From NCBI RefSeq assembly GCF_012027555.1, contig NZ_SNUQ01000003.1:62001-126000 (forward strand): a DNA stretch of 64,000 bases. The letters run 5' to 3'. Under the pieces are notes generated by a model. That model was not told where the DNA came from and ran no database searches. It saw nothing but the letters and a program-made list of their open reading frames with translations. Shown piece by piece: positions 17,685 through 48,548 of this stretch; positions within the stretch are counted from its first letter, which is position 1; each line of letters opens with the position of its first letter. Source of the DNA: Thermococcus sp. CX2. GTDB lineage: Archaea; Methanobacteriota_B; Thermococci; Thermococcales; Thermococcaceae. The translations under genes were made by a program, and so were the position numbers.

Positions 17685-18536
<852 letters not shown>

Positions 18537-19212: not shown

Positions 19213-19287
19213 GGGGTCGGTGAAGGGCGTGTTCATCACGACGCCGCGCGAAACGCGGTCTCAGCAAAGCAAAAGCTCGTCATCCCC
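19213..19287 (-). ncRNA. C/D-box guide RNA candidate A
   Basis: Read on the minus strand, the 75 nt parse as GGGG, box C ATGACGA, a 12-nt guide GCTTTTGCTTTG, box D' CTGA, a 21-nt segment with a CCGCG/CGCGG hairpin, box C' GTGATGA, a 12-nt guide ACACGCCCTTCA, box D CCGA and CCCC. Spacing of exactly 12 nt is the norm for archaeal C/D sRNAs that direct ribose methylation. Box C and D each differ from consensus by one base, giving a C-C in place of the usual U-U pair of the kink-turn. It aligns without gaps with the copy at 22962-23036. The targets of its guides are not established. Confidence 0.7.
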
Positions 19288-19357
19288 CTGTCGGCCCGAC
19301 CGGAACCCCCGCTTCACTCCTCCGCGGAGAGGGCGGGAAGCCGGGCCGTTGGGGGAT
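19282..19357 (-). ncRNA. GC-rich hairpin next to, and overlapping, candidate RNA A
   Basis: ATCCCCC (19282-19288) pairs with GGGGGAT (19351-19357), CGGCCCG (19292-19298) with CGGGCCG (19342-19348), and CCCGC (19308-19312) with GCGGG (19333-19337). The outer helix uses the same bases that close candidate RNA A, so the two folds compete. A TTAAAA element near 19369-19374 could start a minus-strand transcript covering both. Whether it is a separate RNA, a processing signal or the eppA terminator is unknown. Confidence 0.4.
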
Positions 19358-19382
19358 TGGAAGAGGGGTTAAAAAGCCTTGC

Positions 19383-20594
19383 TCAGAGGCCGGCTATTTT
19401 GAGCTGTATCCACCAGAAGATGTCGCCCCAGAAGTATGCTATTAGGAAGCCGATGAAGAGCGCAGGGGCAAAGGGCATAGCCTTCTTCCTCAAAAAGCGG
19501 TTCTCAAGCTTCCCCTCCTCAACAAGGCGCTTGAGTTCCTCGATCTGCTCCTTCTTTAGCCCTTCTGCGGTGGGGGACGCTATGACCCTGCCGTAGTCTG
19601 GCCTCAGGACTTCGAGGTTGGCCGTCAGGAGGGAGATCTTCAGGCGGACAAAGGCATCGGTTCTGTCCCTCCCTATCTGGCCGTTCTTCTCGAATATCGT
19701 CTCGCCGAGGATGTCCCATTCCTCAAGCTCTTCAACGGGCACCTCCTCCATGAGAACCTCGGTGCGCATGAACTTGACGGTCGAGAAGAAGACCTTGAAG
19801 AGGTATATCACCGCGAGCAGCCTGGCGAATATCCAGAGAGCCATTCTGGGGTCGAGGTAAAGCAGGTAACCGAGCACGAGAAGTCCAAATGCATCACCGA
19901 ACTTCCTGGCCCTTCCAAGTGCCACCACTACAATGAACGTGAAGGCCCATCCAAGAAGACCACCGAACACGGTTCCAGTCGTGTCGTAGAGGACTATCTG
20001 CAGCCCCAGTGCCGCGGTTATCCAGAGCGCAACCTCAACTGTGAGCCTGGCCCCGCCGGTGAGTATCTCCTTCAGCTCGCTGAACTTTTTCCTGGCTATG
20101 ATTACCCCAAACGAGTAGAGGAATATGAAGGGGAACACTGCGATGATGCTGTTGAAGAGTATTGAGAGGGGATACACCGGGTAGGTCAGGGCGTAGGGGG
20201 GAACCACCGATGCTGTAGCCGGTGGATACGGCAGGAGGGCCGAGAAGCCGGCGAGGATAACCACGTCGCCGCTCGCCCAGGCGCCGATGATGTAGAGGAT
20301 GACTCCAAGGGCAAGGCCGATGAAGAAGCCGATAATTCCGGAGAGAGCCAAGGGAACGTCTCCGGCTTTAATTCCCTGGTAGAGATAGTACAACACTCCT
20401 ATCTCCGTTGCAGGAACGACGATCTTCGAGATAATTCCGAATTCAGACGTTTCCTCCTTTTTCCCTCTCAGCCTCTCGATGATTTCAAGGGTTGGAAAGA
20501 CGTGGGAATCGAGGATAAAGCCGGACTTCAGATCTGTGTAGGAGGTTAGAATACCCGAGATAAGCCCGACAAGAAGGGGTATCGAGATGTCCAT
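19383..20594 (-). CDS. Prepilin peptidase, A24/EppA-like
   Basis: A 403-aa membrane aspartic peptidase that cleaves class III (prepilin-like) signal peptides. The two catalytic aspartates are visible: in SYTDLKSG (about residue 21) and in GAWASGDVVILAG (about residue 109). Six to eight hydrophobic helices follow the usual pattern, and a charged cytoplasmic C-terminal region comes before a final helix. The ATG follows GGAGGGTTGGG. The class III pilin-like gene at 20617-20784 is directly upstream, so enzyme and substrate appear to share a transcript. Confidence 0.9.
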   Translation of the reverse strand: MDISIPLLVGLISGILTSYTDLKSGFILDSHVFPTLEIIERLRGKKEETSEFGIISKIVVPATEIGVLYYLYQGIKAGDVPLALSGIIGFFIGLALGVILYIIGAWASGDVVILAGFSALLPYPPATASVVPPYALTYPVYPLSILFNSIIAVFPFIFLYSFGVIIARKKFSELKEILTGGARLTVEVALWITAALGLQIVLYDTTGTVFGGLLGWAFTFIVVVALGRARKFGDAFGLLVLGYLLYLDPRMALWIFARLLAVIYLFKVFFSTVKFMRTEVLMEEVPVEELEEWDILGETIFEKNGQIGRDRTDAFVRLKISLLTANLEVLRPDYGRVIASPTAEGLKKEQIEELKRLVEEGKLENRFLRKKAMPFAPALFIGFLIAYFWGDIFWWIQLKIAGL

Positions 20595-22961: not shown

Positions 22962-23036
22962 GGGGTCGGTAACGGCAGGGCTCATCACGGTGCCGCGCGA
23001 AGCGCGGTTTCAGCTAGCGAAATTTTCGTCATCCCC
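22962..23036 (-). ncRNA. C/D-box guide RNA candidate B, predicted 23S rRNA target
   Basis: Same layout as candidate A, aligned over 75 nt without gaps: GGGG, box C ATGACGA, guide AAATTTCGCTAG, D' CTGA, a 21-nt segment with a CCGCG/CGCGG hairpin, C' GTGATGA, guide GCCCTGCCGTTA, D CCGA, CCCC. Boxes are conserved while both 12-nt guides differ from copy A. The first guide complements UAGCGAAAUU, a universally conserved 23S rRNA segment; by the fifth-nucleotide rule the C of UAGC would be methylated. It begins 8 bases after the stop of the lipid synthase gene, so it may be cut from that mRNA. TTTTT at 22944-22948 could terminate it. Confidence 0.75.
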
Positions 23037-23043
23037 TCTTGCC

Positions 23044-23607
23044 TCACCTCAGCCTCTGGTAAGCAGCCCACATCCTCTGGAAGACGGTTATCCAAGCGAG
23101 CACGGCAACGATGTAAACACCGTAATCAACGTGGCCAAAGAGTGCGGTGATTATCAGGATGAGAAGTCTCTCAGCCCTTTCGGCTATTCCTACCGCCAAG
23201 GTTCCTGAGCCGGCCAGCTCCGCTCGGCAGCGTTCGTAGCTGACGAGGTAGCTCCCCATGAAGGTTATAAACGCCACCTTCCAGTCTACCAGGTTACCGA
23301 GGGCTATCCCAAACAGTACAGCCCCGTCGCTTATTCTATCGAAGGTGGAGTCGAGAAAGGCGCCAAAGCGGCTTGTCTTCCCAGTCAGCCTGGCGAGCGT
23401 TCCGTCGAGGGCATCCACGAGAGAGCCGAAGAGGAGTACCAAGGCGGCGGTAAACTGTTCGCCGCGGTAGAAGAGGTAGGCACCGGCGAGGCTTATCAGA
23501 AGTCCGATGACCGTCAGGTGGTTTGGACTCAGTCCGGTCTTTGCCAATGGCCGCACTATTGCCTCAAGGTAGCCTTTGACCGCCGGGCGGTATCTGTTCA
23601 GGGCCAT
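23044..23607 (-). CDS. CDP-alcohol phosphatidyltransferase, probable archaetidylinositol-phosphate synthase
   Basis: A 187-aa membrane enzyme that joins a CDP-archaeol to an inositol phosphate headgroup. The family motif is complete: DALDGTLAR followed by FGAFLDSTFDR at about residues 65-91. Five or six hydrophobic helices surround it. Assignment to inositol phosphate rather than serine rests on general resemblance. ATG 23607 has GAGGAGGA at proper spacing; ATG 23613 overlaps the upstream stop as ATGA and is an alternative. Confidence 0.87.
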   Translation of the reverse strand: MALNRYRPAVKGYLEAIVRPLAKTGLSPNHLTVIGLLISLAGAYLFYRGEQFTAALVLLFGSLVDALDGTLARLTGKTSRFGAFLDSTFDRISDGAVLFGIALGNLVDWKVAFITFMGSYLVSYERCRAELAGSGTLAVGIAERAERLLILIITALFGHVDYGVYIVAVLAWITVFQRMWAAYQRLR

Positions 23608-23609
23608 TC

Positions 23610-24152
23610 TCATTCCTCCTCTAGCTCGACGACCTTCTTGCCTTTCTCCTGCGGGATTATCTTGAGCCTGGCGTTCTTGAACTCCTTTCTGAGTCCTTCA
23701 CCATCGAGCAGCCTGTCGAGAAAGACCGCTAAAGCGGCAACCTCGCTGTGGGGCTGGTTTCCGACGGCCACGTTGTAGTTGGCCATCTCGTAAACTTCTT
23801 TTGGCACCTTTTCCGCTCCAACGACCACCATGATGTCCCTTCCCGATTTCAGCTCTTCCTTAATCTTTGGAACCGCATCGTCGATGTGAATGCCGTACAT
23901 GGTCAGGTGGGCTATTATTCCGCCCGTCTCTTTCCACTCGCGCATTATCCTTTTCCAGCTCGGATTGAAGGTTATTTCAAAGGGACCGCCCCATCGCTTA
24001 ACCACGTCCTCAACGCTCTCCTTCACGTGCTCGTCAACCTCTGCCGCGATTATTATTTTATCCGCGCCGAAGGCCCTCGCAGTCAAGGCTACGTGTGTCG
24101 TTATTCTTTTGTCTCTCTCCGGCCTGTGTCCAAGGCGAAGCACTACAATCAT
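23610..24152 (-). CDS. tRNA (cytidine-56-2'-O)-methyltransferase, aTrm56
   Basis: A 180-aa SPOUT-class enzyme that methylates the ribose of C56 in the T-loop of archaeal tRNAs. The N-terminus [19 protein letters not shown] is the family hallmark, and the knotted SAM site is built from [11 protein letters not shown] and [12 protein letters not shown]. Archaea with aTrm56 generally do not use a guide RNA for this site. The ATG follows GGTGAGGT and overlaps the preceding stop codon (ATGA), so it is coupled to the lipoprotein gene. Confidence 0.95.
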
Positions 24153-46157: not shown

Positions 46158-48548
46158 TCAGCCCCTCGCCTGCTTGAACTGCTCCTGGATTCTCTTGTAG
46201 TACTCTATGGTCTCCTTGCTCACGCTCGGGCCTATCTTCTCCAGTGCCTCCTCGAAGTCGGCCATTGTAACCTTGACCTTCTGCCTTATCTCGTCGGCCT
46301 TCATTCCAGGCTTGATGATGCCCTCCTGGAGCGCCTTCCTCATGGCGAGCATGGCAGCCTCCCTGACCACGGCCGCGATGTCGGCTCCAGTGTAGCCCTC
46401 CGTCCTCTTGGCGAGCTCCTCGAGGCTGACGTCCTCAGCGAGCGGCACGTTCCTGGTGTGCACCTTGAGTATCTCCAGCCTGGCCTTCTCGTCTGGCGCT
46501 GGCACGAGTATCAGCCTGTCGAACCTTCCTGGCCTGAGCAGGGCTGGGTCTATGATGTCCGGCCTGTTGGTGGCCGCTATAACCACTACGCCGCTGTTCT
46601 CGCCTATGCCGTCCATCTCAGTGAGCAGCTGGTTGATGAGCCTGTCGGTAACCCTGTTCACGTCAGTGCCGCGGCGTGGGGCTATTGCGTCGATCTCATC
46701 GATGAATATCACCGTTGGAGCTGCCTGCCTGGCCTTCCTGAATATCTCGCGGATGTTCTTCTCGCTCTCGCCGACCCACTTGCTGAGCACCTCTGGGCCC
46801 CTGATGGCGATGAAGTTGGCCTCGCTCTCAGTAGCGACGGCCTTGGCGAGGAGCGTCTTACCGGTTCCCGGCGGACCGTAGAGGAGTATTCCCTTCGGTG
46901 GGGTTATGCCCAGTCCGAGGAAGGCCTCCGGGTACTTGAGCGGCCACTCGACGGCCTCTCTGAGCTCCTGCTTGACATCTTCAAGGCCACCGATGTCGTC
47001 CCAGCGAACGTTCGGAACCTCGAGGAGCACCTCCCTAAGCGCTGACGGCTCGACCATCTTGAGGGCCTCGTAGAAGTCCCTCTTTGTGACCTTGAGCTCC
47101 TCAAGGACCTCCTTGGGTATGTGCTCTGCCTCGAAGTCTATCTTGCCCTCCTTGATGAGCCTCCTCAGCGCTGCCATAGCAGCCTCTCTCGCCAGCGCTG
47201 CCAGATCAGCTCCGACGAAGCCGTGGGTCTTCTCGGCCAGCTCCTCCAGCAGGTCGTCGATGAGCTTGACCTTGACCTCATCGTAGAGCCTCTCATCGAG
47301 CTCCCTGAGTATCTCCTTGACTTCTTCCTCGGTCTTGGCCTTCTCGACCCTCTCTATGGCCCTGTCAATTACGTCCCTGAAGCGCTCGTCGCCGCGCAGA
47401 CCCTCCAGTATTTTCTTGACCTTGCTGACCCTGAACTCTGGCTCGATTGGCATTCCCCTGGTGTGTATCTGGAGTATCTCCTTCCTGCCCTGCTTGTCTG
47501 GCACACCTACCTCAAGCTCGCGGTCGAACCTTCCCGGCCTCCTCAGGGCTGGGTCAAGGGCGTCTGGCCTGTTGGTTGCACCGATGACTATGACCTTGCC
47601 GCGGCTCTTGAGGCCATCCATCAGAGTCAGGAGCTGGCTGACAACTCTCTTCTCGACTTCGCCGTGGGTCTCTTCCCTCTTAGGAGCAATTGCGTCAATC
47701 TCGTCTATGAAGATTATCGCTGGAGCGTTCTCCTCTGCCTCCTTGAATACCTCTCTGAGCCTCTCCTCGCTCTCGCCGTAGTACTTGCTCATTATCTCTG
47801 GCCCGTTGATGGCTATGAAGTGAGCGTTAGCCTCGTTGGCGACGGCCTTAGCGAGGAGCGTCTTTCCAGTTCCAGGCGGACCGTAGAGGAGCACACCCTT
47901 CGGCGGCTCGATGCCGAGCTTCTCGAATATCTCAGGGTGCTTGAGCGGGAGCTCTATCATCTCCCTGACCTTCTGGATGACGTCCTTGAGGCCACCTATG
48001 TCCTCGTAGGTGACGCCGAGTGCTGCCGTCTTGCTGACCTCCTTGACGGGCTTCTCGCTGACGGTGAAGTCGGTGAACTCGGTTATCTGGACTATACCAG
48101 CTGGAGTGGTCGCGGTGACGACAAAGGTGAGCTCCTGGCCGAGTATGCCTACCTTGATGTAGTCTCCCCTGACGACTGGCCTACCGACGAGCCTGCTGTG
48201 GAGCCACTCGACGAAGTCGTGTCCAAAGCGTATCGGCTCGGTCGGGGCAACTATGACCTTCTTGGCTTCCTTGACCTCTGCCTTTCTGACAGTAACCTCG
48301 TCGCCAAGTCCAACCCCGGCGTTCTTCCTGATGGTTCCATCCATTCTGATGATGGAAAGTCCTTCGTCCTCTGGGTAAGCTGGCCAAACGACCGCGGCGG
48401 TGTTCTTGGTTCCGATGATCTCGATGATATCACCCGGCTGGACGCCAATCTCGCGCATGGCTTTCCTGTCTATCCTAACTATCCCTCTTCCAACGTCACG
48501 CTGATATGCAGACGCGACCTTCAGCTTAACTTCTCTCTTTTCGGTCAT
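46158..48548 (-). CDS. CDC48/VCP-type AAA+ ATPase
   Basis: A 796-aa hexameric unfoldase that feeds proteins to the proteasome and other pathways. The N-terminal double-psi barrel ([18 protein letters not shown]) is followed by two AAA+ modules; each has Walker A ([15 protein letters not shown]), Walker B ([10 protein letters not shown] and [10 protein letters not shown]) and a sensor region ([14 protein letters not shown]). The length fits p97-like archaeal proteins. GGAGGTGGTG precedes the ATG. The Hsp20 gene lies upstream on the same strand, so both belong to the protein-quality system. Confidence 0.98.

Follow-up and report, generated by a model that had tools for sequence, protein, structure and literature searches.

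A hairpin module directly 3' of box D' recurs among C/D guide RNAs of Thermococcus, with sR9 as one of its carriers

Why does an archaeal C/D guide RNA carry a hairpin between boxes D' and C'? The question is raised by a 75-nt element in the 64,000-nt stretch of Thermococcus sp. CX2 DNA analysed here (the window), at 19213-19287 on the minus strand. Along that strand, box C (AUGACGA, 19283-19277), a 12-nt D' guide (GCUUUUGCUUUG, 19276-19265), box D' (CUGA, 19264-19261), a 21-nt D'-C' spacer (GACCGCGUUUCGCGCGGCGUC, 19260-19240), box C' (GUGAUGA, 19239-19233), a 12-nt D guide (ACACGCCCUUCA, 19232-19221) and box D (CCGA, 19220-19217) follow one another inside a GGGG/CCCC closing stem at the ends of 19287-19213. 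Boxes D' and C' match the consensus perfectly, and boxes C and D are each one letter off, a deviation also seen in orthologues, which were recovered in about 80 genomes. Four boxes, guide slots of 10-12 nt and a closing stem are the hallmarks of archaeal box C/D sRNAs; the layout C-12-D'-(2-40)-C'-12-D turns up at two places in the window and is absent from all 200 dinucleotide-preserving shuffles. The second occurrence is a gene at 22962-23036 (minus), whose boxes are the same and whose hairpin agrees at 16 of 18 positions. An earlier note on this DNA had described the boxes, the slots, the closing stem, the GC hairpin and the similar copy, and in these respects it was accurate. The spacer of the 75-nt element holds a 6-bp hairpin, and the inserted module (GACCGCGTTTCGCGCGGC, 19243-19260, minus) is delimited by folding, a covariance model, module alignment and covariation. 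The hairpin alone folds at about -9 to -11 kcal/mol. The thermodynamic folding energy of the whole 75 nt is unexceptional (z = -0.8) and uninformative on its own, as expected for RNAs that L7Ae shapes.

Both RNAs pair a box C of AUGACGA with a box D of CCGA (19277-19283 with 19217-19220; 23026-23032 with 22966-22969; minus strand), which would set C opposite C in the kink-turn of each. Kink-turns normally have U opposite U. Relatives show a mixture of CTGA and CCGA.

On sequence grounds, the 75-nt element is the C/D half of a known dual H/ACA and C/D guide RNA, snoR9/Pab21. Rfam family RF00065 (snoR9) matches 19348-19219 (model positions 1-128) at 91.6 bits, over the gathering cutoff of 90, with a poor alignment across the inserted hairpin, and the guides are identical with those of orthologues. 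An Rfam search of the minus strand had been proposed in the earlier note, whose call of a minus-strand guide RNA stands, although it was incomplete: it missed the H/ACA half, a Pab21 orthologue at 19288-19348 (minus) that folds into a stable hairpin (z = -2.0) with a terminal ACA box at 19291-19289. A candidate TATA-like motif found by eye (TTTTTAA, 19369-19375, minus) precedes the H/ACA 5' end (19348) by about 25 nt and stands just past the stop codon of the ORF at 19383-20594. The H/ACA and C/D parts are on one transcript in P. abyssi (PMC4652768), and the snoR9 match in genome G004 (230449-230575) has the same coordinates as in that report. The RNA of the window shares with snoR9/Pab21 an H/ACA hairpin with its ACA followed by the C/D part, and the same two guides in the same order. 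It differs from P. abyssi sR9 in having box C AUGACGA and box D CCGA, and a 21-nt D'-C' spacer with a hairpin where P. abyssi has 4 nt. A study of the T. onnurineus primary transcriptome lists 13 snoRNAs (PMC5316973).

We compared the guides of the orthologues recovered among 94 Thermococcaceae genomes. Both sR9 guides, CTTTTGCTTTG and CACGCCCTTC, are constant, whereas boxes drift by single letters (C as ATGACGA, ATGATGA or ATGAGGA; D as CCGA or CTGA). Drifting boxes beside fixed guides had been named in the earlier note as grounds for refuting a guide RNA, yet this is the pattern that selection on rRNA pairing predicts. Guides were then matched to the rRNA of their own genome, with positions numbered on the predicted 23S rRNA and 60 permuted guides as controls. 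The D' guide of sR9 forms 11 contiguous pairs around 23S G207 with position +5 paired, and no permuted guide did as well; its D guide forms 10 around 23S G55, again with +5 paired (2 of 60 permuted guides as good). The window also contains a 5S rRNA gene (17696-17817, plus), apart from the 16S and 23S genes on another contig.

The hairpin is the unusual part of this otherwise familiar RNA, as the earlier note had proposed. On a species tree of six linked genes (FastTree), 58 of the 65 sR9 orthologues placed have a D'-C' gap of 2-4 nt. The four-species clade of the window (G000, which is the genome of the window, with G029, G026 and G039; support 100) has long spacers, although in G026 and G039 they are shortened and fold weakly; long spacers of other sequence occur in G034/G044 and in G040. 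A search for long D'-C' gaps found the same hairpin in further C/D genes of the window's own genome, a recurrence that the earlier note had missed. The module has the consensus RACYGCGC-YYY-RCGCRGC and sits directly 3' of box D'; its 17-18 nt comprise RA, a 6-bp stem, a pyrimidine-rich triloop and then C. A covariance model of D'-hairpin-C', run on the 94 Thermococcaceae genomes, has matches in 25, all in Thermococcus, and found the module in none of the five other genera.

Pattern and model searches, with the surroundings of each hit read, place the module in at least eight C/D loci with different guides: sR9, the second gene, sR12, an sR14-like gene (guide to 16S U13), sR39 (in G026 and G039), a gene on contig C4 (in G000 and G029), and two neighbouring genes, X and Y. 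Genome-wide counts, from strictly filtered searches anchored on box D', are lower bounds. The sR14-like gene carries the module in 6 of 57 genomes, the others mostly having 3 nt there. At locus X, about half of 44 genomes have a long, hairpin-type spacer, with 10 changes on the tree; a search of the rRNA with the guide of this locus (CCTCTAGGGTAT) found no target above chance. Taking about 17-18 nt out of an occupied site gives the empty one, and the insertion point lies just 3' of box D': G033 reads CTGA|CAAA|ATGATGA and G019 reads CTGA|GTCCGTGACTTACACGG|CAAAA|ATGATGA, and the sisters G039 and G026 read CTGA|GAAAAAG|ATGATGA and CTGA|AACTGCGATTCGTGCAGC|GAAAAG|ATGATGA, respectively. The module is thus patchy between sister species, with the guides unchanged. 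Outgroups lack it at the sR14-like and sR9 loci, where a gain is therefore the more parsimonious view.

Within the window, the module is present at the two sRNAs only; we rejected a dispersed repeat, as the sole further site has three mismatches and is within chance expectation. A scan of 85,000 species with the exact CTGA-anchored pattern, from which close relatives may have been excluded, returned two Thermococcus records and eight matches in other bacteria that we take to be chance. One C/D-like sRNA, at about 1450-1550 of L154 (G000:C4, ~48380-48480, plus), has the same D'-C' hairpin and, instead of a 12-nt guide, a C-to-D' interval of ~42 nt resembling GC hairpins (GCCCCCTTGAGGGG AGCCCCCGAAGGGGGC); its D guide forms 11 pairs with 16S rRNA around G322, and the G029 orthologue (L217) is similar. 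Two more, G029:C1:139983-140028 and G029:C1:51894-51942, with orthologues in G026 and G039, carry unrelated D'-C' hairpins (CGCCGCCCGGGGAGGCGG; CGAGACTCGCTCCCTCGG).

Such patchiness is what one would expect if the hairpin were a neutral insertion into a loop that faces away from the RNP and tolerates it, for the hairpin comes and goes between close relatives with the guides unchanged, and the shortened, weakly folding forms of sR9 in G026 and G039 fit the same explanation. The stem itself points the other way, being maintained by compensatory changes. The 28 distinct 18-letter modules align without gaps, with 92.9% of pair cells standard, and both sides have changed in 14 cells, compared with 5.6 in shuffles; none of 500 shuffles reached 14. 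Sequence kinship weakens this shuffle control, but a slid-partner control is also far lower, so that the module stem looks to be kept at the RNA level. We consider a neutral insertion somewhat unlikely.

How one hairpin came to occupy so many loci is a separate matter. GC-rich hairpins at the C'/D' tip may be favoured in hyperthermophiles, and each locus could have acquired its own, converging on a stable form. Clearly different D'-C' hairpins do arise, as in sR9 of G034, G044 and G040, and across most of the genus the second gene has others (GCCGCT-GGAA-AGCGGC among them), some abutting the kink. But these independent hairpins differ from one another, whereas those of the window's clade match even at unpaired positions (the 5' RA, the pyrimidine triloop and the 3' C), and many between-locus module pairs have 14-17 of 18 letters in common. 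Moreover, random GC-rich hairpins of the same geometry share at least 16 of 18 letters with the second-gene hairpin in only 1e-4 of draws, which favours copying over convergence. Independent origin is accordingly unlikely.

With copying preferred, the module resembles a mobile element in two respects, namely the same sequence at several unrelated sites and clean empty sites in relatives; inspection of the insertion sites by eye revealed no target-site duplication. We suggest, tentatively and short of expecting it, that it is an RNA-level module spreading among Thermococcus C/D genes, inserted precisely after box D', present in at least eight of them and maintained as a stem by compensatory changes. 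Gene conversion between sRNA genes, RNA-templated copying or a miniature element may be the route. Such a module would count as a mobile feature of these genes; according to a 2021 review, features of this kind in archaeal C/D sRNAs "remain to be discovered" (PMC7994747).

A further question is what the hairpin does to the kink. If it supplied a stem I, the C'/D' K-loop would become a standard K-turn, bound by L7Ae as at C/D. Among archaeal guide RNAs, K-turns at the internal position are an accepted variant (PMC8413462), and across most of the genus the second gene carries stems of 2-6 bp that adjoin the kink, accompanied by boxes off the consensus (GCGA or ACGA; ATGAAGA); over all its long spacers, 87 kink-abutting pairs were counted, against 23.4 in shuffles. 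The hairpins of the window belong to another class. Here, D' CTGA and C' TGATGA stand in all 37 rows of sR9, X and sR14 with a spacer of at least 12 nt, an internal loop parts the stem from the kink, and kink-abutting pairs are at or below chance, with 0-1 in the two genes of the window. For this class we therefore reject a standard K-turn, an explanation that we regard as quite improbable. The association between canonical boxes and the hairpin at sR9, X and sR14 is suggestive (p = 0.09 at best). Because the stem stands off the kink and D' and C' are canonical, we read the window hairpin as a K-loop cap.

To judge by sequence, a hairpin-capped K-loop is the most fitting description of the window class, and an internal K-turn that of the other second-gene class. 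The two classes agree with published binding data on L7Ae: the boxes must be consensus or, alternatively, the first pair of stem I must be intact along with the A-G pair (PMC8413462). Neither textbook form describes the two genes of the window: sR9 has a 21-nt spacer with a hairpin rather than a short loop, and the two genes have at most one pair directly beside the bulge. They resemble archaeal K-loops in their consensus C'/D' boxes without a conserved kink-abutting stem, and differ in the 6-bp hairpin; archaeal K-loops have only a few nucleotides, according to Nolivos 2005 as cited in two later papers (PMC7994747; PMC8162545). The closest engineered counterpart is st-sR26 of P. furiosus, likewise an archaeal guide RNA with a helix added at its C'/D' end: in vitro, the RNP of P. 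furiosus sR26 held together for days at 55 C only once the K-loop of the RNA had been exchanged for a K-turn, a change that had no effect on the oligomeric state (PMC7089733). By analogy, the hairpin probably stiffens the C'/D' end of sR9. That precedent is, however, a man-made true K-turn, whereas the window hairpin occurs in nature, with an internal loop between it and the kink, so that its stabilising role is suggested by analogy and the effect may not carry over.

The second gene begins 8 nt past the end of the ORF at 23044-23613 (minus), and its module (AACCGCGCTTCGCGCGGC, 22992-23009, minus) was recognised by the covariance model and module alignment. Rfam RF01122 (sR39) matches it at 36.9 bits, below the cutoff of 50 and mainly through the D' guide (AAUUUCGCUAG). 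This guide is nearly identical with that of the full sR39 found elsewhere in the same genome (G000:C3:147067-147121), and both are predicted for 23S C2039, where the second-gene guide forms 10 contiguous pairs with +5 paired (0 of 60 permuted guides as good). We rejected a plain sR39 given the sub-cutoff score, the different D guide and the true sR39 at another locus; the hairpin is a further difference. The D guide pairs weakly with 23S rRNA, 10 of 60 permuted guides being as good; three of the four guides of the two RNAs in the window are thus complementary to rRNA with +5 paired. The predicted methylations, which we infer from these pairings, are Gm207 and Gm55 for sR9 and Cm2039 for the second gene, all in 23S rRNA.

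Syntenic orthologues of the second gene keep its guides constant, as AATTTCGCTAG or very near and as CCCTGCCGTT. Where the two genes are close, inside the genus of the window and beyond it, sR9 has the second gene ~3.5-4.5 kb on its upstream side. We rejected a recent duplication in which the guides of one C/D gene diverged; shared boxes and near-identical hairpins at a distance of 3.7 kb suggest it, but it is barely credible, since distant genera hold orthologues of both genes with the same guide sets and without this hairpin, the hairpin alone being shared. By its orthologues, then, the second gene is a separate, old C/D gene. The earlier note had read the pair as a guide family with diverging guides; for two old, separate guide RNAs, each with its own guides fixed across Thermococcaceae, diverged guides are to be expected and are no evidence of a young family.

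Taken together, we consider it probable that the element is the C/D half of snoR9/Pab21 and that a Thermococcus module caps and stabilises its K-loop, spreads by copying and is cleanly lost. Sequence layout, the known family, guide conservation, rRNA complementarity, and the recurrence, patchiness and covariation of the module were established here; we infer transcription in this species, methylation, L7Ae binding, the stabilising role and the copying mechanism. With L7Ae, Nop5 and fibrillarin, sR9 would direct 2'-O-methylation of 23S rRNA at G207 through its D' guide and at G55 through its D guide, and the second gene would direct Cm2039, a site it would share with the separate sR39 gene. The 17-18 nt module, placed 3' of box D' in sR9, the second gene and at least six other Thermococcus C/D sRNAs, would leave canonical D' and C' free to make the kink and take up L7Ae. 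With a small internal loop setting it apart, the hairpin may stabilise the C'/D' end without touching the 12-nt guide slots. The module would have spread by copying between sRNA genes and also been cleanly lost.

The guide RNA sR9/Pab21 was already known; what is new is a hairpin family that reaches well beyond sR9 and the second gene. Accounts of the C'/D' end of archaeal guide RNAs give it a K-loop just a few nucleotides long, yet one genus repeatedly places hairpins there, in two classes: a hairpin off the kink with consensus boxes, and a kink-abutting stem with non-consensus boxes. There is also an annotation blind spot, as inserts bring orthologues close to or under Rfam cutoffs. Sister species with and without the hairpin in one and the same guide RNA offer ready-made comparisons for studying the role of the C'/D' end in RNP stability and suit questions of mono- or di-RNP assembly, whose in vivo role is regarded as unsettled (PMC7089733). 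If the module is copied between genes, the architecture of a guide RNA can change while its guides remain undisturbed.
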